Source: Empedobacter brevis NBRC 14943 = ATCC 43319 (GTDB taxonomy: Bacteria > Bacteroidota > Bacteroidia > Flavobacteriales > Weeksellaceae). Taken from it: a stretch of 64,000 bases of DNA. This document shows, in pieces, positions 2,583 through 20,161 of this stretch. The DNA lies in the NCBI RefSeq assembly GCF_000382425.1, contig NZ_KB908291.1, positions 372,001 through 436,000 on the forward strand. Direction: 5' to 3'. The stretch's first letter is position 1. Every line of letters begins with the position of its first letter. The position numbers were made by a program, and so were the translations under genes. The notes under the pieces are model-generated. The model was given only the letters and a program-made list of their open reading frames with translations, was not told the DNA's origin and ran no database searches.

Positions 2583-2676
2583 TTTTTAAATTCCAGAGAA
2601 GAGCAAAATTTCTACGTGCATTATTTTTCTTATTAAAAGAAAATGAGTATATTAGAAATAATTAACACTTAACAAT

Positions 2677-4185: not shown

Positions 4186-4188
4186 GCC

Positions 4189-7100
4189 ATGAAAAAAATA
4201 TACTTCCAATTATTGTGTTTATCCTTAAGCGGCCCTACTTTCGCACAAACGAATCCGACTGAATTAAGTAACACATCTTCGTTAACTCCTGACATGTTTC
4301 CCAAAACGCCGGAAGCAAACGGGCTAAGCAAATTTGTCGATATACCTTCGGGAAATTATACCGGTGTCGCTACTTTTACAATTCCACTTTATGAAATCGA
4401 TTTAAACGGAACGAAAATTCCAATCCAACTAAGCTATTCAACAAAAGGAGTCACGGTAGGCGAAATTGCAACAAGAACAGGTTTAGGATGGAGTTTAGAC
4501 ACAGGAGCTTCACTTTCGCAGCAAGTAATTGGAACACCGGATTTTATACGAACAGGAACCCGGCCTGTTATAGATCACCTAACATTTGATCCTATTCACA
4601 ATGAGAATGACAAACAGTTGGCAAGAGAGGTCTTGGATATTATGCAGGGAAGCACCAAACCGCAAGATTTGCAACCGGATGTTTATTCGTATAATATTGT
4701 AGGGAGTGGCGGGCATTTTATTGTTCGTTCAAATGGAATTGATGGCGTTCCCATACCTATGAATCAAGATAAAATAAGGAGATCATGGGACTATATGAAA
4801 ATTTACAATGACAAAGGAGTTCTTCACAATTTTACAACAGATCAATTGGTTCAAAGTTTTAATTCGTGCAATACAAACGCTGGGTTTGAATACAATGATC
4901 CCAATTATAAAATAGGACAAATCATTACACCAACTCAGCATAAAGTGACGTATCACTACAATGAATACGTGAATTCAACGTACGTGACCTCTGTTTCTAG
5001 TTCAAAAACGATTTCCACTCATAGAAGTGGACCTTTACCAAATAATTTTGGACAAGCTCCAGAAACTTGTCACAATTATTCTGTGAACAAGGAATCTATT
5101 TTAACAAAAATAGATTTTCCAAACGGATACATTGAATTTACTTATGTTACTACCTTAAACAAAGGAGACACAGATAGAAAGGATTTACCCGGAGATAAAA
5201 TATTAAAAACAATTCGTGTTAAAAATAATGCAGGAGCTCTTCTTCGAAATTATGAATTGAATTATAAATACGTCCAAGCTACAGAAACATATCCAATTGA
5301 CCGAAATTATCTAAAAGGAATTGACTATCGTTTATTTTTGACTTCTGTAGAAGAAAAAAATAGTAAAGGAGTATACAAGTTAGACTATTATGAAGGATCC
5401 AAGAACCCCACACGAATTTCAAATGATCAGGATTATTGGGGAATTTACAATGGAAAAGGAAATACGACAGCTATTCCTACTGTACGCAACATTGTGGGAT
5501 TAGAAGGTTTTTTGTTTAATTTTTCCGGCGCAAATAAACAGCCAGATCTTACTTATGGAGTGATTGGGAATTTGAAAAGAATCACTTATCCTACGAAAGG
5601 ATTTACTGAAATAAAATACGAAAATGATGAGTTCTTTAAAGATTTTACTTTGCCTGAAGATTATGAAATAATCGATTATCCCGGGTATGTGAGTACAGAT
5701 TCTAATTTGAATTATGATTTTGATATCACCCACTATTTCGAGAAAAAAATAAGCGGAACCTTTAACGTAATAGGAAGACAAAACGAGCCAAGTGCACATG
5801 GAGGATGTAAAATCCAGATTAAAAATCTATCCAATAATTCGATTATTTTTGAATCTGATAAATATGGGAATTGGTCAACTGATGTAAATGACGGAAGCTA
5901 TAGAATAGCTATTTTTCCTGCTACCATGTATAATTATGAGTGCGAAGCTGAATTCACAACAATCGAAAAAATACCAAAAGAAACTTCAGATACCGGAATT
6001 ATCGGAACATTAAGAGTTCAGCGTATACAATCTGAGGATGCAAAAGGACATACCATCACAAGAGAATTCACGTATAAAAATCCTGTTACCCGTAAATCTT
6101 CGGGAAAAAATTTTGGAGAAAGTTATTTTGATCCTGTTCTTTATGATGAAATTCCTTTTAAACCGGATGAAGCAACCCTTTACACGTCTTATTTACAGAA
6201 GCTTTCTATCACCAATAATCCGGGGTGGCAGACTTCTACAGTTCGTGGAAAATCTATTGGGTACGAATATGTGCAGGAAATTTATAAGGGCGATGGAATA
6301 TCGTTCAAAAAACAATACCGTTTTGATAATGAACATGACAATGGTTATGGATACCGCCCCCGACATGTTATTCAACTTTTTTGGCCAATGGATGGTTTTC
6401 AAAGAGGAGAGTTAAAAGAAACGATTGAGTATGATGCATCCGGTGAATGGGTGAAAAAAGAAATTTATGAACCTGATTACAGCACAGAACTAAACAAAGG
6501 TTTATTGAATAATAATGGTGGAGAAGCCATAGATGTCGGAATTGTACTTAAATATGGGTCAAAGGTAGATGAACGTCCCTTTATTTTTGATGTATTTTCA
6601 GTTAAAAACTATTGGATTAAACCTTTGAAGAAAACGACAATCGAAAAATTAAATGGTCAGGAGATTGTAAAAGAAGAAACATACGAGTATAAATCTCCTC
6701 CAAAACATACTTATCCGTGGAAAATCAGTTCATTGAACAGTAGAAATGAAAAAATAGTTCAGGAAACAACTTATCCGTTGGATGACCCGAGTGAAACGAA
6801 TATGTCGGATTTGATTGAGATGAATATTCATTCGGCGCCTGTTAGAAAGAAAACGACCAATATCACCAAAAATATAAAGCTAGAAGAAACAAAAAGTACG
6901 TATGGTAAATTCACCACAAAAAATTTCGTTTTACCTCAATTTGTTTATGTCAACAAAGGAAATCAGCCAATTGACACATCAATAGATAAGGAAATAACAT
7001 TTGACGCTTACGATACGTATGGGAATTTGACACAGTATACGGTAAAAGATGTCACAACAAGTGTTATTTGGGGATACAAAGGAACGTATCCGGTTGCGAA

Positions 7101-7398
7101 GATAGAAGGTGCAAGGATTTCTGATTTCTCAGCAACTGACATCAAAGCAATTGAAGATGCTGTAGATAATGCCACATTGGTAACGAAATTAAAAAGTCTG
7201 ATTAGCACGACTTCGGCAGCCATGATAACCGGTTATGTGTACGAGCCATTGAAGGGTGTTCAGCAAATGATCAACCCTAACGGAACCTCTGTTTATTACA
7301 ATTATGATGCGTATGGCCGATTATTAAATGTCATGAAAGAAGACGTCAACGGTGTGAAAACGACGGTGAAATCGAATGAGTATAATTATAAAAATTAA
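4189..7398 (+). CDS. RHS/YD-repeat-type exported protein, first half of an RHS pair
   Basis: 1069 aa. The signal peptide MKKIYFQLLCLSLSGPTFAQ is followed by a conserved block (SKFVDIPSGNYTGVATFTIPLY, then TRTGLGWSLDTGASLSQQV), common to large Bacteroidota RHS-like and SpvB/TcB-like beta-rich proteins. Near the end are YD-type motifs (YDTYGNLTQY, VYYNYDAYGRLLNV). It has no toxin tip and no T9SS tail. It sits 3 bases after the T9SS protein and 4 bases before the RHS toxin, implying one operon. By analogy with the TcB/TcC pair it may form half of a hollow shell around the toxin; that is inference. The organisation as a full gene is clear. Confidence 0.85.
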   Translation: MKKIYFQLLCLSLSGPTFAQTNPTELSNTSSLTPDMFPKTPEANGLSKFVDIPSGNYTGVATFTIPLYEIDLNGTKIPIQLSYSTKGVTVGEIATRTGLGWSLDTGASLSQQVIGTPDFIRTGTRPVIDHLTFDPIHNENDKQLAREVLDIMQGSTKPQDLQPDVYSYNIVGSGGHFIVRSNGIDGVPIPMNQDKIRRSWDYMKIYNDKGVLHNFTTDQLVQSFNSCNTNAGFEYNDPNYKIGQIITPTQHKVTYHYNEYVNSTYVTSVSSSKTISTHRSGPLPNNFGQAPETCHNYSVNKESILTKIDFPNGYIEFTYVTTLNKGDTDRKDLPGDKILKTIRVKNNAGALLRNYELNYKYVQATETYPIDRNYLKGIDYRLFLTSVEEKNSKGVYKLDYYEGSKNPTRISNDQDYWGIYNGKGNTTAIPTVRNIVGLEGFLFNFSGANKQPDLTYGVIGNLKRITYPTKGFTEIKYENDEFFKDFTLPEDYEIIDYPGYVSTDSNLNYDFDITHYFEKKISGTFNVIGRQNEPSAHGGCKIQIKNLSNNSIIFESDKYGNWSTDVNDGSYRIAIFPATMYNYECEAEFTTIEKIPKETSDTGIIGTLRVQRIQSEDAKGHTITREFTYKNPVTRKSSGKNFGESYFDPVLYDEIPFKPDEATLYTSYLQKLSITNNPGWQTSTVRGKSIGYEYVQEIYKGDGISFKKQYRFDNEHDNGYGYRPRHVIQLFWPMDGFQRGELKETIEYDASGEWVKKEIYEPDYSTELNKGLLNNNGGEAIDVGIVLKYGSKVDERPFIFDVFSVKNYWIKPLKKTTIEKLNGQEIVKEETYEYKSPPKHTYPWKISSLNSRNEKIVQETTYPLDDPSETNMSDLIEMNIHSAPVRKKTTNITKNIKLEETKSTYGKFTTKNFVLPQFVYVNKGNQPIDTSIDKEITFDAYDTYGNLTQYTVKDVTTSVIWGYKGTYPVAKIEGARISDFSATDIKAIEDAVDNATLVTKLKSLISTTSAAMITGYVYEPLKGVQQMINPNGTSVYYNYDAYGRLLNVMKEDVNGVKTTVKSNEYNYKN

Positions 7399-7402
7399 TC
7401 CG

Positions 7403-10400
7403 ATGAGAAAGTTACTTTTACTATTTAGTTTATTTTCCGTCAACGCATTCGCTCAAACGAAAACGGAAAATTATACGATGGAAACCGTTTGTTTAAATGG
7501 CAATTGTACAGAAAAAATACAAACCATAAAATACTTAGATGGATTAGGACGGGAAATACAATCCATTTCCAACTCATTTAATCCAAATCTCAAGGCATTG
7601 GTTAACCTGACCGAATATGATTCGCTGGGAAGACAAGCAAGAGAATATTTACCAATGGCGGTTTCTTCAACACTTGAATTTCAACCGGGGTTGAATGAAT
7701 CTGCTGTAAAAGGGTATTACAACGGACTGAATTTATATGGTACGGATGCAAATTATGTGTATGCTGAAACAAAATTTGAAAACAATCCTTTGCAACGCAA
7801 AATTAAAACTTCTGCACCAGGCGAAAGCTGGAAAATGGATGGTGGTCATGAAATCCGTTATGAGTATGCCTTCAATTCGGCAGCAGATCATGTAAAGAAA
7901 TTTGATTTATCGACAACTTATCATACAACAGAAAAAATATACATCAATAGCTTAACCGCAACACCAACTGTGTATCCGCAAAATATGTTGTACAAGACTA
8001 TTATTCGCAACGAAAATTGGCAGTCATCAGACGGCAATACCAATAACCTGACAGAAAAATACACCGATAAGGAAGGGCAGGTGGTGTTGGAACGAAAATT
8101 CAACCAGGGTACCGCTTTAAATACCTATTATATTTACGATGTCTATGGAAACTTAGCCTATGTTTTGCCGCCTCTTTTAAGTGAAAAAGGAACGATAAGC
8201 ACCACTTTATTAAACAATTTGGGGTATCAGTACCGCTATGATTCCAGAAACCGGCTGGTTCAAAAAATGGAACCGGGAAAATTGTGGGAATCTATTGTAT
8301 ACGACAAGAACGATAGAGTAGTGTACACACAATCGGCCAACCAAACCAACCAAGAGTGGAGTTTTATAAAATACGATAAATACGGGCGTGTCGTTTATTC
8401 AGGTTTGCATACCTCATCCGCAACGCGACTTGCTTTACAAAATGAATTGAATGGTTCTACAGTTAATTTTGAAGAGAAATCAACAGGTAGTTTTCAGAAC
8501 AATGGGCTAAACAATATTTACTACACCAATGCTGCATTTCCCAAAACCAATATGACGGTATTGATTGTCAATTATTATGACACGTACGAAAATACAGGAG
8601 TTACATTTCCAACAGCTGCTTACCATACCATTGTAAATGATCCGTCTTCAAAAAAACTGAAAGGATTGGGGACAACGAGTTTCGTGAATATATTGGGGAC
8701 AACGACATGGAATAAAACCTATAATTTTTATGAGCAGGATTACCTGCGTTCGGTTGCAACAGAAATTCATTACCCTGGAAACGGGTATACAAAAAGTTTT
8801 TTTAAGCTGAACTATGTCGATCAGCCGACTGACAGTAAAGTTGTTCACAAACGTCCAAATTCATCGGAAGCCGAAAGAATAATAGAAGAACATTTTGATT
8901 ATGATGATTTATTGCGTCTGACTAAACATACACACCGGGTTAACAGTGGAAAACTGGAAACATTGGCCGTTAATAGGTACGATGATTTAGGCCGATTAAC
9001 GTCTAAAAAAGTAGGAAATACAGAAGTTAATCCATTGCAAACCATTGATTATAAATACAACATCCGGGGATGGATGACAGATCTGAACAATGTGGATGCT
9101 TCCTTATCGGATGCAACCAGGCTTTTTGCTTTCAAAATAAGTTATGACCAATTGAAGTACGGACCAAGACGGGCTGCAACTGCAACCGGTTTATACAATG
9201 GGAACATCAGCCAGACTTTTTGGAAATCCTCTTCCAATAATACGTTAAGAAGCTATGATTACAGCTATGATGGAATAAATCAATTGACAGATGCTATTTT
9301 CTACAAAGGAACAGGGATTTATGCAAAAAATTACTACAACGAAAATATCACCTATGATCATAACGGGAACATCACAACATTGCAGCGTAACGGAGATACC
9401 GAAAGCGGCTCTACACCTGTTGTTATTGATAATCTACGTTATACTTATAGTTCAAATACCAACAAACTTTCTGCTCTTACAGACTCATCCGCTCATCCGT
9501 CCGGATTTAGTTCTAACAAAACAGGGGTTTTATACGAATATGATGCTGCCGGAAATCTGAAAAAAGACCACAGTAAAGATATTATAGAAATCAAATACAA
9601 TCACCTGAATTTAGCGACAGAAGTTATTTGGTTAAATGGCAGTACCATAACATTTGTGTACGATGCAACAGGGAAGAAGGTACAAAAAAAAGTTTCTAAA
9701 ACCAACCCGGGAAGTAATCCTGTTCCTGTTCGGACAGATTATTTAAATGGTTTTCAGTATAAAAACGGAAGTTTACAGTTTTTTCCTACCGCAGAAGGTT
9801 ATGTCAATGTTATTGTAAAAGACAATAACGAAAAACTAAGTTACGTTTACAATTATAAAGACCATTTGGGAAATACACGTGTCAGTTATGCGTGGGACGA
9901 ACATGAAAATAAATTAAAAACGATTGAGGAGAACCATTATTATCCTTACGGTTTGCAACACAACGGCTACCAAGGAGGAAGAGTTATAGGGGATTTAGAT
10001 GAAGGAGAAATTTCTTATCCAAAAACCGCGGCATTGCCGGGTATTGATATTGGTACAGAACGTATGAGTTATTCGGGTAGCGAAAGTTATGCGTACCACT
10101 ATAACGGTAACGAGTTTCAAAGTGAGTTGGGGATGAATTGGTACGATATGAATCTGCGAATGTACGATCCTGCTCTTGCGCGTTGGATGGTGCAAGATCC
10201 TGTTATTCATTATACCAAATCGACCTACAACGCTTTTGATAACAATCCTGTATATTTTGCAGATCCTAGCGGAGCTACTGCAGAAGGCAGTAATGAGAGT
10301 AGCAATAGTAGTACACAAATTAGTTCCGGAGTAGGAGGAATTACGTTTGATTTAGCCACTCATCCCGGAGCAATTGGATATCAAAGTTATTCTGAAGGGT

Positions 10401-11068
10401 ATACTTCAGTAACCCGTAGATTAGAAAGAGTTGATGATCCTGAATTAAAAAATGCTGGAAATCTTTATTTAGATAGTAGTGATGATTTAGATGCTGAAAT
10501 TGATGGGTATCTTCTTATTAATAGAGTTTATACAACTTATCATCCAGGAAGTGTAGTAGGACTAAATACACCTAGTTGGATAGGAAATTTAAATGATGGT
10601 ATAGGAGGTTTTGGAGGAGGTCTTTCATATAATGGTAGAAACGGAAATAGATTATTTGTAGGAACAGCCCGTCCAGGTAAGCCTGTTAATTTAGGGATTA
10701 CAAAATTCTATGGAAATGGAAAAACTTATATAAAACCTGTTTATATGAATAGAGCCGGAAGTGTTCTAGGAAAAGGAAGTGCAGTAACTACAGTTGTTCT
10801 TGGTAGTATTAGTATTGCTGATGGTATTGAGGAAGACGGAGGTACATTTGGTCAAAATGCTGCAGTAGCTACTGGAGGAGTGGCTGGAGGAGCTGCTGGA
10901 GCTTGGGGAGGAGCTGTATTAGGAGCTGAAATAGGAGCTGGAGTTGGTGTTTGGTTTGGTGGTGTAGGAGCAGCACCTGGGGCTCTTATTGGAGGTATTG
11001 TAGGTGGAATCGTGGGAGGTATAATAGGAACAGAAGCTGGAGAAACAGCAGTTAAAGCCGCTTATTAA
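7403..11068 (+). CDS. RHS repeat protein with RHS core and variable C-terminal toxin region
   Basis: I place the start at 7403 because MRKLLLLFSLFSVNAFAQ is a signal peptide; an ATG at 7376 would overlap the upstream gene and bury it. About 1221 aa. The N-terminal block IKYLDGLGREIQSI resembles DUF6443, followed by many YD repeats (YDSLGRQ, YDKYGRVVY, YDDLGRLTS). The RHS-associated core is LGMNWYDMNLRMYDPALARWM...YNAFDNNPVYFADPSGA, ending near residue 957. The remaining ~264 aa differ in composition: a polar stretch, then a Gly/Ala-rich tail with repeated GG/GxxxG (VGGIVGGIVGGIIG), suggesting membrane activity. The following gene is the likely immunity protein. Toxin activity is inferred. Confidence 0.88.
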   Translation: MRKLLLLFSLFSVNAFAQTKTENYTMETVCLNGNCTEKIQTIKYLDGLGREIQSISNSFNPNLKALVNLTEYDSLGRQAREYLPMAVSSTLEFQPGLNESAVKGYYNGLNLYGTDANYVYAETKFENNPLQRKIKTSAPGESWKMDGGHEIRYEYAFNSAADHVKKFDLSTTYHTTEKIYINSLTATPTVYPQNMLYKTIIRNENWQSSDGNTNNLTEKYTDKEGQVVLERKFNQGTALNTYYIYDVYGNLAYVLPPLLSEKGTISTTLLNNLGYQYRYDSRNRLVQKMEPGKLWESIVYDKNDRVVYTQSANQTNQEWSFIKYDKYGRVVYSGLHTSSATRLALQNELNGSTVNFEEKSTGSFQNNGLNNIYYTNAAFPKTNMTVLIVNYYDTYENTGVTFPTAAYHTIVNDPSSKKLKGLGTTSFVNILGTTTWNKTYNFYEQDYLRSVATEIHYPGNGYTKSFFKLNYVDQPTDSKVVHKRPNSSEAERIIEEHFDYDDLLRLTKHTHRVNSGKLETLAVNRYDDLGRLTSKKVGNTEVNPLQTIDYKYNIRGWMTDLNNVDASLSDATRLFAFKISYDQLKYGPRRAATATGLYNGNISQTFWKSSSNNTLRSYDYSYDGINQLTDAIFYKGTGIYAKNYYNENITYDHNGNITTLQRNGDTESGSTPVVIDNLRYTYSSNTNKLSALTDSSAHPSGFSSNKTGVLYEYDAAGNLKKDHSKDIIEIKYNHLNLATEVIWLNGSTITFVYDATGKKVQKKVSKTNPGSNPVPVRTDYLNGFQYKNGSLQFFPTAEGYVNVIVKDNNEKLSYVYNYKDHLGNTRVSYAWDEHENKLKTIEENHYYPYGLQHNGYQGGRVIGDLDEGEISYPKTAALPGIDIGTERMSYSGSESYAYHYNGNEFQSELGMNWYDMNLRMYDPALARWMVQDPVIHYTKSTYNAFDNNPVYFADPSGATAEGSNESSNSSTQISSGVGGITFDLATHPGAIGYQSYSEGYTSVTRRLERVDDPELKNAGNLYLDSSDDLDAEIDGYLLINRVYTTYHPGSVVGLNTPSWIGNLNDGIGGFGGGLSYNGRNGNRLFVGTARPGKPVNLGITKFYGNGKTYIKPVYMNRAGSVLGKGSAVTTVVLGSISIADGIEEDGGTFGQNAAVATGGVAGGAAGAWGGAVLGAEIGAGVGVWFGGVGAAPGALIGGIVGGIVGGIIGTEAGETAVKAAY

Positions 11069-11085
11069 GAAATAAATAAAAAGTA

Positions 11086-11634
11086 ATGGAAACAAAAATA
11101 ATTAAGTTCAGTAATAAAAAAGTCGTATTATGGATACTAGGAGGAGGGATACTGGGAGTTTTAGGTATTCTTTTTACAATTTTCCCCTACAAATTTACTA
11201 CAATTTTAGTAAAGAATATCCTATTGATAAGACTTATCGGTATTATAGCAGCACTATTTTTTGGTTTTGTATTAATTACCTTGATTAGAAAAGTTTTATT
11301 TGATAAAAATTTAGGAATTATAATAAATGAAAAAGGAATTTTTGATAATTCTAGTTTTGTAGCAGTAGGTTTAATTAAGTGGGAAGATATAATTTCAATA
11401 AAGAAAAGTAACGTTGGAAAAACAAGTTTTTTACTTATAGATGTTAAAAATCCAGAAAATTATATTAAGACATCAAATAAAATAAAATCAAACTTACTTA
11501 AAGCAAATTATAGATCTTATGGGACTCCTATATCAATATCTTCTAATTTTATAAATTGTGATTTTGATCAATTGGAAGAGTATATTTTAGATGGATTTAA
11601 ACTGCACAAAACTAGTTATGATTCAAAGTATTAG
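11086..11634 (+). CDS. Membrane protein resembling the STM3941 family, probable immunity protein
   Basis: 182 aa, starting 17 bases after the RHS toxin. Two hydrophobic segments near the N-terminus (about residues 14-33 and 43-66) are followed by a soluble PH-like region (IIINEKGIFDN...VGLIKWEDIISI...FLLIDVKNPENYI). This arrangement matches proteins annotated as STM3941 family, which I know only by pattern. Its place directly behind the variable toxin tip, on the same strand and with similar AT-rich composition, is typical for the immunity gene of a polymorphic toxin. A membrane immunity protein would fit the glycine-zipper-like toxin tail. The function is inferred from position. Confidence 0.65.
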   Translation: METKIIKFSNKKVVLWILGGGILGVLGILFTIFPYKFTTILVKNILLIRLIGIIAALFFGFVLITLIRKVLFDKNLGIIINEKGIFDNSSFVAVGLIKWEDIISIKKSNVGKTSFLLIDVKNPENYIKTSNKIKSNLLKANYRSYGTPISISSNFINCDFDQLEEYILDGFKLHKTSYDSKY

Positions 11635-11777
11635 AATTATTTGTAGTATTATACACTATCAATGGTTTAAATTTGAACTGTAATCATCTGACATTATGCA
11701 AATACAACTGTACATGGCAAAATTAAATTTCAAAAACCCTAAAAACTCTAATCTTATTTAATTGACAAGGAGTTCTT

Positions 11778-11859
11778 CAATGCATTTATAGGACTTGTCA
11801 TGTTTTGTATATTATTTTTAGGAGGTGCATATCTATTGGATTTATTAGGATTATTATAA
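11778..11859 (+). pseudogene. 3' remnant of the small membrane gene found intact at 18833-19069
   Basis: The last 26 codons (AFIGLVMFCILFLGGAYLL...) and stop match the end of the 78-aa gene at 18833. Upstream sequence (11640-11777) is unrelated to the rest of that gene and has no open frame. This marks a recombination breakpoint at 11778. The 11635-11777 stretch otherwise holds nothing I can identify. Confidence 0.8.
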
Positions 11860-11949
11860 CCTGCTTTGAGGTCCATTGATATTGGTACAGAACGTATGAG
11901 TTATTCGGGTAGCGAAAGTTATGCTTACCATTATAATGATTATGGAGAA

Positions 11950-11969
11950 AAAAGTTTAAATAAACTTTT
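11950..11969. other. Hairpin in the extra segment that breaks the RHS core frame (copy 1)
   Basis: AAAAGTTTA and TAAACTTTT pair around a 2-base spacer. The hairpin lies in a segment of about 50 bases (11937-11992) that is absent from the full-length RHS gene. There the frame runs directly from SYAYHYNGNEFQSELG; here the extra bases put the two parts of the core in different frames and add a stop at 11961. The same segment occurs at 19141-19196. Confidence 0.7.
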
Positions 11970-12014
11970 GACGAACATACCGCACGAAGTGCTGAGTTTC
12001 AAAGTGAGTTGGGG

Positions 12015-12929
12015 ATGAATTGGTACGATATGAATCTGCGGATGTACGATCCTGCTCTTGCCCGTTGGATGGTGCAAGATCCTGTTATTCATTATACCAA
12101 ATCGACCTATAACGCTTTTGATAACAACCCTGTATTTTTTGCAGATCCTAGTGGAGCTGACGCAGAAGGAGGGGAAACACCTGATCCTAAATTGGCTTTT
12201 GGTGTTCCACTAAGCAGTGTCATGAGAACGAGCTCGGTAGAAACAACTATACAAGGAAAAAGTACAAATAATGCTATTATTAATTTTAGATATAAAGAAG
12301 ATTCAGGAAAGTTTAATGTAAAAGATTTTAAAAAAGCAGGTTGGGATATCATAAATGTAGATACAACAGAAGAAGCTGTTGACAAAATTGGAAACAGAAA
12401 ATTCAATAATTTAATGCTCTTTACCCATGGAGGTATATGGAGATTCGATGATGGTACTTCAGAATCTGGTATTTTCTTAAATTCTATTAATGACGAAAAT
12501 ACATGGGCTGATAGATTAAATTGGGTAACAGATAGTGATATAACAAAATACCAATTAAATGTCTTAACAAATTTTATAGCAAAATATGAAATTCAAAATT
12601 TAATTAGATTAGGTAAATCTGTAAATAATGGCAAAAATTTTATATTTATGGCTTGCGATATGGCTTATTCTAATACTGTAAATGCAGCTTTCTTTTCGCA
12701 AAGTATAGGAAATAATGTTGACGTATTTATGAATAGAGATAAATATTCAAGTAGCTATACCACATATTTAGATACAGGTTCAATAAGTGTAGAAATCAAA
12801 AGTTTTTTTAATAAAAATATGACCTTATCTGAACATTATGAAAAAGGTTGGTTAAAAGCAAATTCCGGAAATGTAACAAATATAAAAAACATACAAATCA
12901 ATGAAAATGGCGTTAAAGTTATTAAGTAG
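12015..12929 (+). CDS. Orphan RHS C-terminal tip 1, putative His/Cys protease-like toxin
   Basis: 304 aa from the first ATG. It starts inside the RHS core (MNWYDMNLRMYDPALARWM...ADPSGA, residues 1-47) and continues into a tip unrelated to that of the full-length RHS protein. It has no signal peptide and cannot be exported alone. The tip has LMLFTHGG (His138) after a hydrophobic strand and FIFMACDMA (Cys214) after another, the layout of clan CD (caspase/gingipain-like) peptidases, then IGNNVDVFMNRD. About half of the tip matches orphan tip 2. It overlaps the following lipoprotein gene by 23 bases. It is probably a silent donor cassette; catalysis is inferred. Confidence 0.75.
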   Translation: MNWYDMNLRMYDPALARWMVQDPVIHYTKSTYNAFDNNPVFFADPSGADAEGGETPDPKLAFGVPLSSVMRTSSVETTIQGKSTNNAIINFRYKEDSGKFNVKDFKKAGWDIINVDTTEEAVDKIGNRKFNNLMLFTHGGIWRFDDGTSESGIFLNSINDENTWADRLNWVTDSDITKYQLNVLTNFIAKYEIQNLIRLGKSVNNGKNFIFMACDMAYSNTVNAAFFSQSIGNNVDVFMNRDKYSSSYTTYLDTGSISVEIKSFFNKNMTLSEHYEKGWLKANSGNVTNIKNIQINENGVKVIK

Positions 12930-13500
12930 AATAGTTAAGATTAGCTTATTGTTGTTAATCATTAATGGATGTACAGTTAAACATAGAATCGAATTGGAAG
13001 GTTGTCCTAAAAATTTTAATTTTTCTTCTGAAGAAAGATTAAAAAACTATCCTTTTAACAATTCTGAGAACATTGTATTCATTTCTTATACACAGAAACA
13101 ACCAGGGCTTATAGGAACGGAATTGTCTAAGTATTTATCAAAATTATATAAAAAAACTAAAAAATTTGAACCAGAAGATGTTAACGAGGCCTATTATCTT
13201 GGTAAAGAAGATATTAATGAATTAACAGATGTGTTTTATAATTACGGCTATAATAAAGGAAATATAACCGTTTCTTCGTCTGGATGTTATATGCCCAAAA
13301 ATGCTATTCTATTTTTAGATAGTGAAGATTATCTTAGTGATTATATTGAAATCTGTTTTGAATGTGGTGTCGTGAAATTTAGTAATGAAAAAATGAATTT
13401 AGGTTATAATTGCTCAGATAAATTAGGACTGATAAAAAAGCTATTTGAGAAGTATAATATTAAGTACTTAAAACTTGAAGATCAAAGATCTACAAATTAA
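12907..13500 (+). CDS. Lipoprotein, probable immunity protein for orphan tip 1
   Basis: 197 aa. I choose ATG 12907 because MALKLL matches the start of the homologous genes at 14174 and 20093; an in-frame ATG at 12901 adds two residues. A hydrophobic signal (ISLLLLIINGC) ends in a lipobox cysteine, so the protein is exported and lipid-anchored. The mature part has a Cys-containing segment (EICFECGVVKF). The start lies inside the toxin reading frame, giving translational coupling. A periplasmic lipoprotein would suit protection against a protease-like tip. The function is inferred from position only. Confidence 0.65.
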   Translation: MALKLLSRIVKISLLLLIINGCTVKHRIELEGCPKNFNFSSEERLKNYPFNNSENIVFISYTQKQPGLIGTELSKYLSKLYKKTKKFEPEDVNEAYYLGKEDINELTDVFYNYGYNKGNITVSSSGCYMPKNAILFLDSEDYLSDYIEICFECGVVKFSNEKMNLGYNCSDKLGLIKKLFEKYNIKYLKLEDQRSTN

Positions 13501-13505
13501 TAAAA

Positions 13506-14159
13506 ATGGAGGAATTAAAGTGGTTAAATAAAATTAAATTTTGTGTAGCAGTATATCTTTTATCATTTTCAACACATGCTCAAGAATCTGACTATACATC
13601 TATCTACAACGATTCTATTCCTAATAAAATGGAATTTGATGTAAAAGAAGTTATTTTAGAAAAAAACAATGAATTATATAAAATTAAAGAAAATAAAGGA
13701 TATACAATTTATCTGATGGGTTCTCATAAAGAGTATTCTAAGTGGAAAGACAAAACAGGTTCTGGTGAATTATTGAGAGTATTAATTGTTTCTCATTCGT
13801 CAGATATTAAAATAGCATTTGTTATAGATGATCGTTATTATATAGAAAGACAAAAAAATAAAATAACAATAAAAAAAGTTTTTAAACTTAATGGAGCAAG
13901 AAATCCTTTTCTGTTGGATTCTAATCTAAAAATAAAAGAGATAACCCGATTTTCTATTAAAAAAGGTGAATTATATTTTCAGAATGTGCATAAACCTTGT
14001 GAAATAAAAATTCGAAAGAAGGTAAATGATTTAACTATCGAAGAAATTTTTGTATTATTTACGGACCCTAATTTTGAAGTAAAGGCAAGTGATTGCAAAT
14101 TACTTTTAATTTATCAACCGTTTTCCGATTGGAAAATAAATCAACCATTGGATAAATAA
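13506..14159 (+). CDS. Secreted putative immunity protein, paralogue A
   Basis: 217 aa with an N-terminal signal peptide (residues about 8-25, ending SFSTHAQ). It is a clear paralogue of the next gene: the first ~47 residues are nearly identical (KWLNKIKFCVAVYLLSF, ESDYTSIYNDSIPNKMEFDVKE) and the ends are similar (VKASDCKLLLIYQPFSDW), while the centre differs strongly. Conserved ends with a variable centre fit immunity genes under diversifying selection and recombination. It follows the lipoprotein gene by 5 bases. I know no named family for it. Confidence 0.65.
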   Translation: MEELKWLNKIKFCVAVYLLSFSTHAQESDYTSIYNDSIPNKMEFDVKEVILEKNNELYKIKENKGYTIYLMGSHKEYSKWKDKTGSGELLRVLIVSHSSDIKIAFVIDDRYYIERQKNKITIKKVFKLNGARNPFLLDSNLKIKEITRFSIKKGELYFQNVHKPCEIKIRKKVNDLTIEEIFVLFTDPNFEVKASDCKLLLIYQPFSDWKINQPLDK

Positions 14160-14173
14160 ACATATCAATCAAA

Positions 14174-14827
14174 ATGGCGTTAAAGTGGTTAAATAAAATT
14201 AAATTTTGTGTAGCAGTATATCTCTTATCATTTTCAATACATGCTCAAGAATCTGACTATACATCTATCTACAACGATTCTATTCCTAATAAAATGGAAT
14301 TCGATGTAAAGGAAATGATTAAAGTAGACGGATATGAATATTATAAAATAAAAGAAGATGATGAATATATCTTCAAATTTCTAGTCCAAAAAAGGTTTCT
14401 TACAAATTTACCTGAACGGTATTTATATACAATTCCGGCACGTATTATTATAGAATCTAAAAAGGACAATAGAAAAATTGCTTTTATTCTGAATGATTAT
14501 TATGCAATCATAAAAAGAAAGAATATAATTTATATAAATAATGCAGGGCCTTTAACAACAACAAAAGTTTTGAATCCCTTATTATTAAAGCAAGATTATA
14601 AAATTAAAGAAATAACAAGCATTTACATGGATAAAGAAATTATTTTTCAAGATGTCGATAAACCTTGTGAATTAAAAATACGTGAGAAACCTGAAAATCT
14701 AACGATAGAAAGTTTCTTTAATTTATTTGAAGATTCAAATTTTAAAGTGAAAGCAAGTAATTGTAAGCTACTTTTTATGTATAGTCCATTTTCTGACTGG
14801 GAAACGGGACATCCGTTGGATAAATAA
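14174..14827 (+). CDS. Secreted putative immunity protein, paralogue B
   Basis: 217 aa, paralogue of 13506-14159 with the same signal peptide (SFSIHAQ) and ends, and a different centre (FLVQKRFLTNLPERYLY). The DNA just before and over its start (14164-14231) is almost identical to 20083-20150, where it forms the end of orphan tip 2 and the start of a truncated immunity gene. So this gene appears to have been the cognate partner of a tip like orphan tip 2 and was later separated from it. It is a periplasmic protein of unknown fold. Confidence 0.65.
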   Translation: MALKWLNKIKFCVAVYLLSFSIHAQESDYTSIYNDSIPNKMEFDVKEMIKVDGYEYYKIKEDDEYIFKFLVQKRFLTNLPERYLYTIPARIIIESKKDNRKIAFILNDYYAIIKRKNIIYINNAGPLTTTKVLNPLLLKQDYKIKEITSIYMDKEIIFQDVDKPCELKIREKPENLTIESFFNLFEDSNFKVKASNCKLLFMYSPFSDWETGHPLDK

Positions 14828-14850
14828 ATTTGAAAAACATTAAAAATTAA

Positions 14851-15537
14851 TCTTGTCTAGGAGGAGGTATAGAAAGTGTACAACTTGGATTTGGAGTTAC
14901 TCTTGCAAATGTAGCAGGTGTTGGTGCAATAGAATCTACCGCTGCTCCGGGATATGGAGGAAATACTAGCACTAGTAATCCAACTCCTAAAGATAAAAAA
15001 GAGGATGATAAAAATTCACAAAATGGAGATCCTAAGAAAATAAGAGAACAAATTGTAAAAAATGTAAAAGATAATGAGAACTCCACAGCGTATAACTATG
15101 ATGTTTTAAAAGATGAATTTGGTGTCAACACTAATAAATGTAATAAATTCGTATATGATGTACTTAAAAAATCAGGAATCAATGTTCCTAATATGGGTGG
15201 ATTAAAAGGTATTCTTGAGTTGGGAGGGCCTCCAACAGCTGGTCAATGGGGAGATCCAGATGTAACTATAAGAGGTTGGGAGGTTGTTTCAAAGCCTCAA
15301 GCTGGTGATATAGTTGCATATAAATATGGATATTCTGATGCAACTGGCCATGTAGCTATAATGATCTCTCAAACACATTCTATAGGAACCAGTGGTACAT
15401 ATAATAAAGTTTCAGTGACAGATTTTGGTTCTAATAAAAATCATCTTCCAGACGGTTCTACATATGTTTATAGAAGATATGTTGGATCAGTGTTTTCTAC
15501 AAAATCAGGAAATAACCCTTGGAGAGCATATCCTTAA
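14851..15537 (+). pseudogene. Start-less displaced RHS tip with NlpC/P60-like amidase domain
   Basis: The frame is open from the stop at 14848-14850 to 15537 (about 228 codons) but has no ATG before 15193 and no core. It begins SCLGGGIESVQLGFG, runs through a linker rich in Asn, Thr and Pro, then has a papain-like fold signature: catalytic Cys in NTNKCNKFVYDVL (codon at 15139), KPQAGDIVAYKYG, and His in ATGHVAIMIS (codon at 15349). This resembles NlpC/P60 or CHAP peptidoglycan amidases. Starting at ATG 15193 would lose the Cys. It is best read as a silent tip cassette. Confidence 0.7.
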
Positions 15538-15553
15538 AAACTAATTTATTATT

Positions 15554-16030
15554 ATGAAAAAAATTGTGTATATATGTTTTAGTATATTATTACTAATAAT
15601 TCTGTTTTTATTGCAGCAATATTATTTTCCAAATGCTCGTAGTTTTGAGCAAATGGAAACGTATAAGGTAGTTAATGAGAAAAATGAAATTATTCCTTGT
15701 AAACTATACAAAGAAAAAGATGAGATGCTTTATATTATTATATTCGATGATTACTACAAAAGGAGATTACATATAAATCTTGAAAAAAATCTAATTGGAT
15801 TTCCAGAATATGGATATAAGAATTATAGAGTAACAGATGGAGGAAAAACATTGTATTTATTTAAAGAGAATTTATTCTATAACGATGGAGTATTATTTCA
15901 TCCTTTTTCACCTATTGAACTTAATCAAATCGTGTTATCTCAAACTAAAAATAGGTTAGAGCTTTCAACAAAGTATCTACATGCTCTTAAGGAGTATGGA
16001 GATAAAATAATAGTAATATATCAGAACTAA
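15554..16030 (+). CDS. Membrane-anchored protein, probable immunity to the NlpC/P60-like tip
   Basis: 158 aa. One N-terminal hydrophobic segment (IVYICFSILLLIILFLLQ) acts as anchor or uncleaved signal, and the rest (about 135 aa) should face the periplasm, where a peptidoglycan amidase would act. It contains many aromatic residues (EYGYKNYRVTDGGKTLYLF). It starts 16 bases behind the tip cassette, the normal place for the cognate immunity gene. No family recognised; role inferred. Confidence 0.6.
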   Translation: MKKIVYICFSILLLIILFLLQQYYFPNARSFEQMETYKVVNEKNEIIPCKLYKEKDEMLYIIIFDDYYKRRLHINLEKNLIGFPEYGYKNYRVTDGGKTLYLFKENLFYNDGVLFHPFSPIELNQIVLSQTKNRLELSTKYLHALKEYGDKIIVIYQN

Positions 16031-16423
16031 AATTCCAAATCTCTTAGATTTGGGCGAGTGAAAGATACATATGGGAAATCAGCTTTCTTCTTCTCATTTA
16101 ATGGAAACATTGGATGGGGAGGAGGTCTAGGTTTTGATGCTGGAACTATTGAGACAACAAGTGGTAATGCATTTAGTATAAATGATATGGAAGGAGAAGG
16201 TTCTGCATACAATATAGGACTTACAACTCCAATTGGTGGAGCAGGTTATAATTATGGAGGAAGTATTGGAAAAGGAACACTTCCAAAAGATAAAGCTTTT
16301 TCTCCATCAAAATGGGGAACTAATGATAGAGGTTATATACAAAAATCAGTAAGTGTAGGACCAAGCGGAAAATTTGAAGTAGGAGTTATGTACCAAAACA
16401 GTCATACATATTTATTAAAATAA
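16031..16423 (+). pseudogene. Start-less displaced RHS tip, glycine-rich, unknown activity
   Basis: The frame opens immediately after the previous stop (16028-16030) and runs to 16423: NSKSLRFGRVKDTYGKSAFF, then a Gly-rich, beta-like stretch (NIGWGGGLGFDAG, IGGAGYNYGG) and FEVGVMYQNSHTY. There is no ATG before Met residues deep in the domain; the only possible early start is GTG 16058. Sudden onset without core or start is the same pattern as at 14851. The two small membrane genes that follow look like its immunity genes. The toxin class is not recognised. Confidence 0.6.
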
Positions 16424-16435
16424 AAATTAAGTCAT

Positions 16436-16807
16436 ATGAAAAAGGAATGGTGGATATTAATTATAATAATACTTTTCCCTATGGGATTAATAATAGGAAT
16501 AGGAACATTCAATTATTTAACAGAAACAAGAACAAGAAAACAAATCTATTTGGATAATGTTAAAAAATTAGCTTTTCACAATAGTATAAATAACATTTAT
16601 AAAGAGAAGAGGGATCATAATGTATTAATTATAAAAGGAAAAAGAAATGATGAAAAATATAAAATTTATTCAAATTGGGAGCATAAGTTTTTGATAGGCG
16701 ATTCAGTATCTAAAGATTCTGGTAGTTTAAAATTGGAACATTATAGAGATGGAAAGTTGTTAGAAGTATTAGATTACAATGATATTTATATAAGAGAAGG
16801 ATGGTGA
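16436..16807 (+). CDS. Small membrane-anchored protein, tandem duplicate 1 (putative immunity)
   Basis: 123 aa. MKKEWW precedes a single hydrophobic segment (ILIIIILFPMGLIIGIGTF), followed by about 95 residues of polar sequence. The last 36 residues (DSVSKDSGSLKLEHYRDG...DIYIREGW) are identical to those of the next gene, while the middle differs. The two genes overlap at ATGGTGA. Duplication with a conserved end and variable centre matches the immunity pattern at 13506/14174. Confidence 0.65.
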   Translation: MKKEWWILIIIILFPMGLIIGIGTFNYLTETRTRKQIYLDNVKKLAFHNSINNIYKEKRDHNVLIIKGKRNDEKYKIYSNWEHKFLIGDSVSKDSGSLKLEHYRDGKLLEVLDYNDIYIREGW

Positions 16808-16809
16808 AT

Positions 16810-17178
16810 ATGAAAAAAGAATGGTGGACATTATTAGCAGTAATATTATTGCCTCTATTAAGTTTATTTAGCTATATAGGGTATATAACCTTTTCAGATA
16901 AACGAACCAATAAAGAAGTATTTTTAGATATGGTTATTTTAGATAAATTTCATGAAAAAATTGATTCTATATACAGAGTCAAAAAACAACATAACGGATT
17001 AATTATTTCTGGTAATAATAAATCAATTGGTTGTCCTTTTGTTAATTGCGAGGAAAAATTATCAGTTGGCGATTCAGTATCTAAAGATTCTGGTAGTTTA
17101 AAGTTAGAACACTACAGAGATGGAAAGTTGTTAGAAGTATTAGATTACAATGACATTTATATAAGAGAAGGATGGTGA
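16810..17178 (+). CDS. Small membrane-anchored protein, tandem duplicate 2 (putative immunity)
   Basis: 122 aa from ATG 16810, chosen because it aligns with the MKKEWW start of the preceding paralogue; an ATG at 16801 lies inside that gene. It has one membrane segment (LLAVILLPLLSLFSYIGYI), a variable middle with two cysteines (IGCPFVNCEEKL), and the same C-terminal 36 residues as duplicate 1. It is translationally coupled to the upstream gene. Confidence 0.65.
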   Translation: MKKEWWTLLAVILLPLLSLFSYIGYITFSDKRTNKEVFLDMVILDKFHEKIDSIYRVKKQHNGLIISGNNKSIGCPFVNCEEKLSVGDSVSKDSGSLKLEHYRDGKLLEVLDYNDIYIREGW

Positions 17179-17268
17179 ATATCAAAAATTATTTAGATTA
17201 CTTAACATTTATAAAACGATGAAATAAACTTGAAGATAAGGTTTGAAATAATTCTAAACTAAAAAGAT

Positions 17269-17772
17269 ATGCAAAGAATTAGAGTTTTTGTTTATACTAT
17301 CTTTACGATAGTAATCATATCGTGTAAAATAAATAATGATCAATTAGAGAACATTCATGTTTCCCTATATCATCAAGAATTATTATATGATTCGATAAAT
17401 AGGGGTGATAAGAAGTTTGAGGTTAATTTAATTACGACATTGATCTTTGAAAATAAGAGTAATAAGGAAATATCAATACATAATAAATTATACAGTAAAT
17501 TTTATCTAATAAATCTAAAAGATACGATAGAATTAGTATCTAGACATCTACCAGAAGAAATTATTCCCGAAAAATCAACTTTAAAAATAGAATATAATAG
17601 TTCTACAAATTTTATTGAAAAAAATTATCCATCTCTTGAATTACAGAGCAAAATCAAAAATTCAATAATAAAGAATTATAATGGTGCTATTATCAAAAAA
17701 CATCCTAATTATGAAATTGTATCCTTAATACGTTTGTGGAATGCACCCCCAGATCCCAAATCAATTGAATAA
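17269..17772 (+). CDS. Lipoprotein of the immunity array, unknown function
   Basis: 167 aa. Signal ending in a lipobox (IFTIVIISC), so probably anchored in the inner or outer membrane. The mature part starts KINNDQLENIHVSLYHQ and has a central beta-like section (VNLITTLIFENKSNKEISI), as in domains that extend across a partner protein. It ends in a Pro-rich tail (NAPPDPKSIE). It lies 90 bases behind the duplicated small genes and in an AT-rich context. It is probably an immunity gene whose toxin tip has been lost. Confidence 0.6.
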   Translation: MQRIRVFVYTIFTIVIISCKINNDQLENIHVSLYHQELLYDSINRGDKKFEVNLITTLIFENKSNKEISIHNKLYSKFYLINLKDTIELVSRHLPEEIIPEKSTLKIEYNSSTNFIEKNYPSLELQSKIKNSIIKNYNGAIIKKHPNYEIVSLIRLWNAPPDPKSIE

Positions 17773-17803
17773 GATAAGCTATTTCAACCTTAAATAAATA
17801 CCT

Positions 17804-18256
17804 ATGATATTTAAAAAAAGTTTTGTTATACTTGCGTTAGTTTTTACTTTTTTAAATTGTAAAAACAAAGAAGAATTAATCATTTCTCAAATTGAAATTT
17901 CTATAGAGGAAAGTACTATCTTCACAGATTCAATACAATCAATGTTATGCATATATGCCAAACCTCTTAACGAAGATATATTTTTTCCAAGTCATTTAAT
18001 CTTTGAAGATAATACAAAGGAGCAAAGGGCTTATTTAAACAAATATGACCATGAGAATTTCTTAAATTCAAATTCAAATTTATTTTATTATATAAAATAT
18101 AATAAAATAAAAAGCGAAAAGGATTTTGAAAAACTAAAATCCCAAGTTATCCAATTGGAATTTTATCTACCTGATGGACGAAAGTTAAAAAAAGACGACA
18201 ATTTTCAAATCAAAAAAAGTAGTTTTAAATATATAGATACCCGTTTAGATATGTAA
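17804..18256 (+). CDS. Lipoprotein of the immunity array, unknown function
   Basis: 150 aa, lipobox signal (VILALVFTFLNC). The mature part is acidic then basic (IEISIEESTIFTDS; KKDDNFQIKKSSFKY). It follows the previous lipoprotein by 31 bases and precedes a membrane protein by 12 bases, so the four genes from 17269 to 19069 look like one operon without a toxin among them. No known family recognised. Confidence 0.6.
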   Translation: MIFKKSFVILALVFTFLNCKNKEELIISQIEISIEESTIFTDSIQSMLCIYAKPLNEDIFFPSHLIFEDNTKEQRAYLNKYDHENFLNSNSNLFYYIKYNKIKSEKDFEKLKSQVIQLEFYLPDGRKLKKDDNFQIKKSSFKYIDTRLDM

Positions 18257-18268
18257 AATTTTAAAAAA

Positions 18269-18799
18269 ATGAGAATAGTATATCTTTTAGGTTTAATAAT
18301 ATCCTTTCTATTCATTATACCAACATTATGGCAATATAATTTTAATCACAACTTTGTATTAATTTGTTTAGTTTGTATTCTGATTGTGTGTTTCAATAAA
18401 ATTATAACAAAAGAAATTAAAATTAATTTTTTTACAGTTATCGTAAATATTATATTAATATTCACGATAAGTATCGTTATTAATCTTAACAAATTAAAAG
18501 TTTTTACTATACAGAAATTAGATAATGATTATACAATAATTGTGTATTCAACTAATAGGTTTCCTAATTTATTAGGTAAAATAAAAAATGATTTCTACCT
18601 AAGAGAAAAAAAGAATTTTTTATACAGTAAAGATTACGCTACAGATTATAAAAAAATCAATAAAAATGTAGATATTCTATGTACAACTAATAATGATTGC
18701 CTAAAAGAGAATGATGTAAAAATGATTTATAAATTCTCTAATAATTTAAGCGTATTATATAGTTATAGAACTAAAACTTTTATAAAGCTTAAAAATTAG
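18269..18799 (+). CDS. Membrane protein of the immunity array, unknown function
   Basis: 176 aa. Three hydrophobic segments fill the first 75 residues (VYLLGLIISFLFIIP; FVLICLVCILIVCF; FFTVIVNIILIFTISIVI), followed by a soluble region of about 100 residues with NDYTIIVYSTNRFPNLLGKI and two cysteines close together (ILCTTNNDCLKE). It is strongly AT-rich. The same topology (membrane part, then soluble tail) is seen in the probable immunity protein behind the full-length RHS gene. Confidence 0.6.
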   Translation: MRIVYLLGLIISFLFIIPTLWQYNFNHNFVLICLVCILIVCFNKIITKEIKINFFTVIVNIILIFTISIVINLNKLKVFTIQKLDNDYTIIVYSTNRFPNLLGKIKNDFYLREKKNFLYSKDYATDYKKINKNVDILCTTNNDCLKENDVKMIYKFSNNLSVLYSYRTKTFIKLKN

Positions 18800-18832
18800 T
18801 TTTCAACTTATGTAACCTTTAAAATCTTAAAA

Positions 18833-19069
18833 ATGGAAGTACTATTTGAAATAATTTTCATGCGATTGATTATAAGGTTTTTAGGGGTAAACACCAGATA
18901 TTATTTCTTAAAAATTTTTAATAAACGCTTAACAAAAGAAGATTTAACCGGAACAAACGAGGACAGCAATATTGTACAAGACATTTACAATGCATTTATA
19001 GGACTTGTCATGTTTTGTATATTATTTTTAGGAGGCGCATATCTATTGGATTTATTAGGATTATTATAA
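18833..19069 (+). CDS. Small membrane protein of the immunity array
   Basis: 78 aa. An amphipathic N-terminal part (MEVLFEIIFMRLIIRFLG), a polar centre (KRLTKEDLTGTNEDSN) and a C-terminal membrane segment (FIGLVMFCILFLGGAYLLDLLGLL). Its last third is duplicated at 11778-11859 as part of the 431-bp direct repeat, which shows that this gene stood upstream of an orphan tip leader when the repeat was copied. Function unknown; candidate immunity protein. Confidence 0.6.
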   Translation: MEVLFEIIFMRLIIRFLGVNTRYYFLKIFNKRLTKEDLTGTNEDSNIVQDIYNAFIGLVMFCILFLGGAYLLDLLGLL

Positions 19070-19418
19070 CCTGCTTTGAGGTCCATTGATATTGGTACAG
19101 AACGTATGAGTTATTCGGGTATCGAAAGTTATGCCTACCATTATAATGATTATGAAGAAAAAAGTTTAAATAAACTTTTGACGAACATACCGCACGAAGT
19201 GCTGAGTTTCAAAGTGAGTTGGGAATGAATTGGTACGATATGAATATGCGGATGTACGATCCTGCTCTTGCCCGTTGGATGGTGCAAGATCCTGTTATTC
19301 ATTATACCAAATCGACCTACAACGCTTTTGATAACAACCCTGTATATTTTGCAGATCCCAGCGGAGCTGACGCAGAAGGAGGGGAAACACCTGATCCTAA
19401 ATTGGCTTTTGGTGTTCC
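18988..19418 (+). repeat. Direct repeat copy 2 (431 bp), orphan RHS tip leader
   Basis: Partner of 11778-12208, same length and order of parts: end of the 78-aa membrane gene, RHS core fragment, the frame-breaking segment with the AAAAGTTTA/TAAACTTTT hairpin, RHS core to DPSGA, and the start of the tip. Only scattered substitutions separate the copies. Confidence 0.9.
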
Positions 19419-20115
19419 GTATAGTAGCATTGCCCGTACAAGTGCTATTGAAACAACTATACAAGGAAAAAGTACAAATAACACGATTATTAATTTCTTA
19501 CATAAAGAAGAAGTTGGAGATTTTGATAAAGCTGATTTAAAGAAAAATGGGTGGGAGGTAATTGATGTAAACAATACAGATGAGGCTAATGCAGCTACAA
19601 AAGGAAAATCATTTAACAATTTGATGGTTCTAGCACATGGAGGTACTCTGACTATTGATAAAGAACCTACAGGGCAATACGGAATATTTCTTAGTTCAGA
19701 CAAAAATGATGAAAGTATGACAAATTGGGTTTGGGATTCTGATATTACAGCCTATCAATTAAAAACATTAACTAATAATGTTACAAAAAATAATATTGAA
19801 AATCTGGTTTCTATGGGAAAAACTGTAAACAATGGGAAAAATTATATTTTCATGACATGTAATATGGCTTGGGGAGGTAATACAATTGCTGATTTTTTAT
19901 CTACAAGTATTGGAAATAATGTCGATATTTTTATGAATAGAGATCGAAGTTACATGAGTACTTCTAATAAAAAAGTTACTGCATCTTCCGCACTTAATAC
20001 AAATTTTACTACTCCTGAGCTTTATAATAGCGGATGGATAAAATCTAACTCAGGAATAACAAAGGAAATTAAAAACATACAAATCAATCAAAATGGCGTT
20101 AAAGTGGTTAAATAA
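19225..20115 (+). CDS. Orphan RHS C-terminal tip 2, putative His/Cys protease-like toxin
   Basis: 296 aa from the first ATG. The core piece (MNWYDMNMRMYDPALARWM...DPSGA) is followed by a tip homologous to orphan tip 1 but clearly diverged. Both candidate catalytic residues are kept: LMVLAHGG (His138) and YIFMTCNMA (Cys212), with the conserved following block TSIGNNVDIFMNRD. There is no signal peptide. Its end (NQNGVKVVK) overlaps the start of a truncated immunity gene. It is a probable donor cassette that now lacks an intact immunity gene directly downstream. Confidence 0.75.
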   Translation: MNWYDMNMRMYDPALARWMVQDPVIHYTKSTYNAFDNNPVYFADPSGADAEGGETPDPKLAFGVPYSSIARTSAIETTIQGKSTNNTIINFLHKEEVGDFDKADLKKNGWEVIDVNNTDEANAATKGKSFNNLMVLAHGGTLTIDKEPTGQYGIFLSSDKNDESMTNWVWDSDITAYQLKTLTNNVTKNNIENLVSMGKTVNNGKNYIFMTCNMAWGGNTIADFLSTSIGNNVDIFMNRDRSYMSTSNKKVTASSALNTNFTTPELYNSGWIKSNSGITKEIKNIQINQNGVKVVK

Positions 20116-20161
20116 AATTAAATTTTGTGTAGCAGTATATCTCTTATCATTTATTTGTTGA
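20093..20161 (+). pseudogene. Truncated immunity gene start behind orphan tip 2
   Basis: 22 codons (MALKWLNKIKFCVAVYLLSF, then I-C-stop) are the same as the signal-peptide region of the gene at 14174. Homology ends at TCATTT, and a stop follows at once. The gene has lost its whole mature part, so this is a recombination or deletion endpoint and the right border of the RHS reservoir. Confidence 0.8.

Follow-up and report, generated by a model that had tools for sequence, protein, structure and literature searches.

Orphan RHS toxin tips in Empedobacter brevis form a probable displacement array, and relatives carry a candidate recombinase-bearing tip element

How does a row of loose toxin tips come to lie behind a complete RHS gene, and can such tips still be used? 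The question is raised by a locus of Empedobacter brevis, a member of the Flavobacteriales, in the 64-kb stretch analysed here (the window; contig C1:372001-436000 of a 3.79-Mb genome). Domain matches and open reading frames (ORFs) bear out what an earlier note on this DNA had described, one complete RHS gene followed by four further tips on the same strand (T1 to T4). The note had also listed about ten probable immunity genes or fragments on that strand; we count 11 immunity-like plus-strand ORFs of 78-217 aa between or behind the extra tips. With a probability of roughly four in five, the region is a displacement array behind the RHS toxin gene, and in relatives the insertion of new tips is most likely the work of a dedicated element.

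The complete RHS gene (7403-11068) matches DUF6443 (PF20041, E 4.4e-33) and Rhs_assc_core (TIGR03696, E 1.6e-12), and its N-terminus resembles a signal peptide, by eye only. Fragments of the RHS core are present at two of the four extra tips, T1 and T4, and absent at T2 and T3. T1 and T4 are preceded by duplicate blocks (286/300 nt, 95%), which include the 3' end of the gene at 18833-19069, and a 176-nt core tract, 95% identical to the active gene, recurs at both; these repeats show that the arrangement is not due to chance. The TTG starts listed for T1 and T4 fall within core sequence. The frames of T2 and T3 open straight after a stop codon and have no start at their 5' end, in agreement with the earlier statement that two of the extra tips lack one. 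The claim that old immunity genes are kept is also supported, since the immunity-like gene at 14174-14827 persists behind the apparent end of a lost tip.

The window array most likely belongs with the C-terminal-displacement arrays described in enterobacteria. As we picture its growth, a new tip with its immunity gene would join the RHS core and the previous tip would be pushed downstream without a start or secretion signal, while the old immunity genes would stay behind. T2 and T3 would have lost their core and survive as relics with neighbouring immunity genes.

The nearest named locus is that of Empedobacter tilapiae MRS2 (NZ_SRPE01000016.1), which is 79.5% identical in nucleotide sequence across 2648-10301 but has another active tip. 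This tip belongs to the T3 family (74% identity over about 124 shared residues), and behind it lie homologues of both immunity-like genes that follow T3 in the window. The E. tilapiae gene is split in two overlapping frames, with the 3' half of the core and the tip sharing one frame. The comparison with relatives that the earlier note proposed thus finds an orphan tip of the window at the end of the orthologous RHS gene, with the frame broken upstream. A second, intact and full-length E. tilapiae gene (L071) ends in a tip that is 95% identical, over 240/240 residues, to an orphan on contig C22 of the E. brevis genome. A long core at a contig edge in genome G010 and an orphan in G012 also have a tip in common (82% over 251 residues). 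We compared the tips of 20 complete or almost complete genes. For three of them (T3, the C22 tip and G010/G012) another genome holds an orphan tip that is at least 74% identical, and for one, in G002, an identical copy lies in that same genome; less close or incomplete tip matches also occur among these genes. Judged from sequence, the same tip is found both as an orphan and joined to a core. The head of the active window tip resembles that of an E. tilapiae orphan as well (82% of nucleotides over 10112-10398). T1 and T4, unlike T3 and the C22 tip, are on no core in any searched genome (T1 query, 60 genomes); T1 matches came only from its own genome and E. tilapiae, where the copy is an orphan.

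The array is only partly usable as a reservoir. T1, T4 and the active gene have 176 nt of core in common, in the same frame, through which recombination could re-attach the two tips, whereas T2 and T3 have no RHS core and core recombination is unable to attach them. In the modules of T1 and T4 a 57-nt insert breaks the frame between the 5' core piece and the 3' tract; an in-frame swap would therefore be expected only from a crossover on the 3' side of the insert. The idea of a reservoir put forward in the earlier note is borne out in that orphan tips of the window genome end RHS cores in E. tilapiae, but it does not extend to T2 and T3, which keep no core. Its proposed route, homologous recombination in the conserved core, likewise fits T1 and T4 and fails for T2 and T3, and tip units with recombinases and fixed core borders, found in relatives, offer another likely route.

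These units, with a primase and two tyrosine recombinases following the tip and immunity gene of an RHS gene, occur in Empedobacter, in other Flavobacteriales and on one Aureibacter plasmid. Such a unit is clearest in genome G002, where a tandem duplication of 6,881 bp (99.7% identical) holds the identical tip copy mentioned above. The unit begins within the core at the YKYNGKELQ codons, about 50 codons before the variable tip, and continues with the tip, an immunity-like gene, a primase-like protein with CHC2 and Toprim domains, and two phage-integrase-family proteins, both matched by Phage_integrase (PF00589). Its borders are three copies of the 28-bp AATACAAATACAACGGCAAAGAGTTACA; the first of them lies within an intact gene, and behind the third a different tip follows. 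By eye, and by catalytic motifs that we take to be those of the family, the first recombinase (TR1) has the full set of catalytic residues and the second (TR2; L084) seems to be without the first arginine. The second is perhaps an accessory subunit. TR1 of the relatives scores 107.9 bits against the integron-integrase model, for which the cut-off is 265, and the primase-like protein accounts for all three PADLOC matches. At a contig end of G009 (C78) the backbone is 87% identical, and its right end and site are the same as in G002; in G013 a relic of the right end of the element abuts an orphan.

A search with TR2 in 395 genomes of Flavobacteriales found at least 19 places in at least 13 genomes at E<=1e-35. 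At 13 of the 19 places listed, an RHS core end follows TR2 within about 1.6 kb; two others are cut by a contig end with an RHS end in front, and one has an RHS gene only in front; at locus L263 the gene upstream of the recombinases is RHS. Borders could be placed in nine genomes (a count that leaves out G055, G397 and G560), and in eight of these they lie just before the NGKE codons (G002, G009, G101, G149, G199, G515, G572 and Aureibacter). Near-identical tandem units occur in G002, G101, G149, G360 and Aureibacter, and G199 has two backbones, 98.3% identical over 2,991 nt, with different tips. Among 13 of 14 tips in or behind units, the one left out having been read in a wrong frame, blastp gave no similar pair beyond residue 60 at E 1e-5. 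Plasmid pAT2 of Aureibacter tunicatorum (NZ_AP025307.1) carries an RHS gene, a small gene, an HTH protein, a CHC2 protein and two recombinases; the unit is duplicated (8,169 bp, 99.98%) and then followed by a gene annotated as polymorphic toxin type 47. This record was the sole clear relative in the plasmid searches, other records being 23-27% identical, and a scan of viral contigs with TR2 gave no match.

With recurrent borders, internal recombinases, tandem or stacked copies and interchangeable tips, site-specific insertion is the simplest reading of these units. From this anatomy, a tip-carrying element most likely inserts site-specifically into RHS cores. The primase-like protein and the two tyrosine recombinases would insert at the fixed spot about 50 codons before the tip, and the element would bring a tip and an immunity gene with it, placed at its left end; catalysis and movement are predictions. 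A wider proposal seems to us an even bet: Bacteroidota would have a family of small integrative elements that use the spot at the RHS core end as attachment site and carry tip and immunity gene at the left end, so that insertion swaps the tip in frame and turns the old tip into an orphan. The elements would act as an integrase-driven, integron-like tip loader, orphan arrays like that of the window would be at least partly their footprint, and the hairpin inserts described next would mark or silence stored copies.

Three related inserts of about 50-75 nt occur at three fixed sites of the RHS core in Empedobacter. A profile built from 21 copies finds at least 35 places at E<=7e-6 in eight of 14 Empedobacter genomes, and the next matches reach at most 24 bits. 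All profile-found places lie beside RHS core, and we reject the idea that the inserts are a general dispersed repeat. At the site of the insertion spot, the insert (or a variant in G004) is in none of 17 full-length genes and in 21 of 50 orphans (Fisher p 6e-4, with the copies treated as independent, which they are not). Orphans are here defined by less than 800 residues of open frame upstream, a rule that also takes in fragments at contig edges; the count leaves aside three long partial genes and two duplicate entries and misses one further G001 orphan found by the profile. An alignment of six full genes shows none of the three inserts, and every copy seen so far comes from an orphan. Purifying selection could be enough by itself to keep full genes free of them. 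Most translated copies at the junction site carry a stop or frameshift; those in G003, G012 and G093 (another genus) are in frame. A window copy shares all of 59 nt with a copy at the start of C1, and the cores flanking the two differ. Hairpins are predicted for five copies folded singly as DNA (z -1.8 to -4.9), and RNAalifold gave no consensus structure for the mixed insert alignment. A search with the insert peptide in 395 genomes of the order found only the E. brevis genome at E<=1e-7, and plasmids gave no match. The inserts show no sequence link to the recombinase element and two of their three sites differ from the insertion spot, and a reading of them as scars of that element is unsupported. 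In G004, seven orphan core ends (L189, L190, L191) carry a different hairpin insert at the same site.

Several observations weigh against the main reading, of a displacement array here and a tip-inserting element in relatives. In the public assembly, the E. tilapiae gene that ends in the T3 tip has a broken frame. Not every unit uses the same spot, for the border in G360 lies about 90 nt before it (NYYPFG codons); three of the 19 listed recombinase places are without RHS, and so is a recombinase contig of G009 (C79, 3.6 kb). The 64-kb window holds no relative of TR1 or TR2 at E 1e-5 (no generic integrase or integron-integrase-model scan was made), and the best match to TR1 in the E. brevis genome is 29% identical and lies on another contig. 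The starts of T1 and T4 lie in another core type, on the upstream side of the insertion spot, and carry no element border. Given this start and the lack of TR1 and TR2 relatives in the window, the element belongs to the evidence from relatives and not to that from this locus, and for T1 and T4 homologous recombination would still be route enough. Homologous recombination alone might even build and use the whole array, as in Salmonella, with circles or duplications as intermediates and no site-specific step. The in-frame tract at T1 and T4 and the window without a recombinase relative favour this, as does a Salmonella swap reported over 522 bp at 95% identity (PMC3967940), and we put it just short of even odds. 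It leaves unexplained why unit borders fall at one core spot, why recombinases lie inside the units and why units are tandem or stacked, and T2 and T3 have no core through which it could act.

The downstream genes may instead be an independent defence, in which orphan immunity genes are expressed against the toxins of neighbours and the tips are debris of no further use. This is a tentative reading, for which the 11 immunity-like ORFs to five tips speak, as do duplicated immunity-like genes (13506/14174 and 16436/16801), a tandem of four such genes in E. tilapiae, and orphan immunity arrays reported to protect Bacteroidales (PMC12247911). Against it stand the ORFs of T1 and T4, which remain open, and the orphan tips that sit on cores in relatives. 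The defence reading is compatible with the displacement array and does not exclude it. A reading of the extra tips as toxins in their own right, secreted or intracellular and with their own starts and functions, and not as displaced parts of RHS proteins, is very improbable. T1 and T4 do have long open frames and possible TTG starts, but they begin in the core, T2 and T3 have no 5' start, and T3 and the C22 tip sit on cores in the congener; we reject orphan tips as independent genes on these grounds.

The features of the locus are collected in Table 1. None of the 11 immunity-like ORFs reaches a curated Pfam cut-off, the nearest being THUMP for 17269-17772 (20.4 against 20.6 bits); NCBIfam was run on four of the 11. 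T1 and T4 are 57% identical. In T1 (12153-12929) and T4 (19363-20115) a conserved H-G-G is followed by a later conserved C, a pattern reminiscent of caspase-like (clan CD) peptidases. A PDB sequence search for T1 and T4 gave one match only, at E 0.23. Homologues of the gene at 2677-4185 precede other RHS pairs in the E. brevis genome and in E. tilapiae (L034, L035, L091).

Table 1. Features of the RHS locus in the E. brevis window
Feature	Position	Strand	Remarks
Upstream gene, 502 aa	2677..4185	+	Probably a C-terminal sorting region of type IX secretion system (T9SS) type (T9SS by eye); sequence/translation
RHS-like partner protein, 1069 aa	4189..7398	+	Pfam RHS_repeat below cut-off; homologous pair in E. 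tilapiae
Complete RHS gene	7403..11068	+	DUF6443, RHS core, active tip T0 from ~10262
Probable immunity gene of active tip	11086..11634	+	STM3941 family (NCBIfam), E 6.9e-35
5' RHS core fragment, module T1	11875..11936	+	60/62 nt identical to full gene
Hairpin insert JE, frame-breaking	11938..11994	+	57 nt
3' core tract, module T1	11994..12169	+	167/176 nt identical to full gene, same frame
Orphan tip T1	12009..12929	+	Same family as T4
Probable immunity gene	12901..13500	+	Overlaps T1 end
Immunity-like gene	13506..14159	+	Paralogue of 14174-14827 gene
Probable relic of lost tip end	14154..14199	+	Looks T4-like; repeat family D10; before immunity gene 14174-14827
Immunity-like gene without its tip	14174..14827	+	Paralogue of 13506-14159
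Orphan tip T2	14851..15537	+	CHAP/NlpC-P60-like (CHAP PF05257, E 2.9e-8); no RHS core left
Probable immunity gene of T2	15554..16030	+	ORF position
Orphan tip T3, 5'-truncated	16058..16423	+	Frame open from 16031; same tip ends orthologous E. tilapiae RHS gene
Immunity-like gene behind T3	16436..16807	+	Homologue behind fused tip in E. tilapiae
Immunity-like paralogue of 16436-16807	16801..17178	+	Sequence comparison
Immunity-like ORF	17269..17772	+	THUMP just below Pfam cut-off
Immunity-like ORF	17804..18256	+	
Immunity-like membrane ORF	18269..18799	+	Membrane by eye
Small ORF, membrane-like by eye	18833..19069	+	3' end also precedes T1; repeat family D2
5' RHS core fragment, module T4	19085..19146	+	59/62 nt identical to full gene
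Hairpin insert JE, second copy	19148..19204	+	Frame-breaking, 57 nt
3' core tract, module T4	19204..19379	+	167/176 nt identical to full gene, same frame
Orphan tip T4	19219..20115	+	Same family as T1
Start of lost immunity gene	20099..20152	+	98% identical to 13515-13568; repeat family D9

Arrays of orphan RHS tips also occur elsewhere in the E. brevis genome, on contigs C8, C15, C21 and C22, at the start of C1 and at the end of C5. A query of 75 residues from the core end has 24 matches in this genome, many of them on C8, C15, C21, C22 and C1. Several contigs end inside tip sequence, so the true content of the arrays is probably larger than assembled. At L071 and L072 of E. tilapiae, four orphan modules begin at one core position behind a common leader of about 90 nt. 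At L091 (17681-19219) of the same species an orphan tip is followed by a tandem row of four similar 126-aa genes, which looks like the amplification of an immunity gene.

Two further observations concern the recombinases of relatives. A tandem unit in G360 (L258, reverse-complement 2864, 9613 and 16362) is bordered at the NYYPFG codons, a putative second attachment site in the core. Related recombinase pairs at L262, L265 and L266 (G339, G424 and G136) have no RHS nearby, and two of them have the primase, suggesting that the backbone also has other uses.

The locus resembles the Rhs displacement arrays of Enterobacteriaceae (Jackson 2009, PMC2935791), as described in the parts of that paper drawn on here, where a full gene is followed by dissociated tips with core fragments and the tips are attached elsewhere. 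It differs in that it belongs to Bacteroidota and is of the DUF6443 type, and in that its relatives carry recombinases within the tip units. The orphan rhs of Salmonella (Koskiniemi 2014, PMC3967940) is reported as a main gene and an orphan with about 95% identical core, the orphan tip being attached in other strains. The homology there is 522 bp against 176 nt here, where the frame-breaking insert narrows the region for a crossover, and the present case rests on genome comparison. The T6SS (type VI secretion system) effector-immunity arrays of Vibrio cholerae (Kirchberger 2017, PMC5361080) are likewise ascribed to sequential displacement with old immunity genes retained. Their authors liken the arrays to integrons and, in the parts drawn on here, know of no evidence that an integrase aids insertion, whereas the relatives of Empedobacter supply a candidate integrase.

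Rhs loci of bee gut bacteria (PMC5727410, PMC8125069) are described as having a reservoir of orphan tips used through homologous recombination, with integrase-like genes near Rhs as suggested movers; those accounts, as far as drawn on here, describe no attachment site or unit border, and their integrases are set beside ours by description only. The orphan immunity arrays of Bacteroidales (PMC12247911) also come from Bacteroidota and combine a tyrosine recombinase with orphan immunity genes in rows. The parts of that account drawn on here mention neither an RHS core nor tips as units, and the recombinase, too, is compared by description only. A literature search of titles and abstract openings, with few preprints and subscription journals, found no recombinase-bearing tip units bordered inside an RHS core, the closest being the integrase-like genes near Rhs of bee gut bacteria.

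In the displacement model as set out in PMC2935791, an integrase enters only by analogy, not being known with Rhs, and in the parts of later papers drawn on here it is still unproven (PMC5361080, PMC5727410). How new tips are added before old ones without deletion was the open step of that 2009 model. Tip units with fixed borders and their own recombinases make this step a testable mechanism. They would also account for the passage of unrelated tips and immunity genes from strain to strain around an RHS core that is retained.

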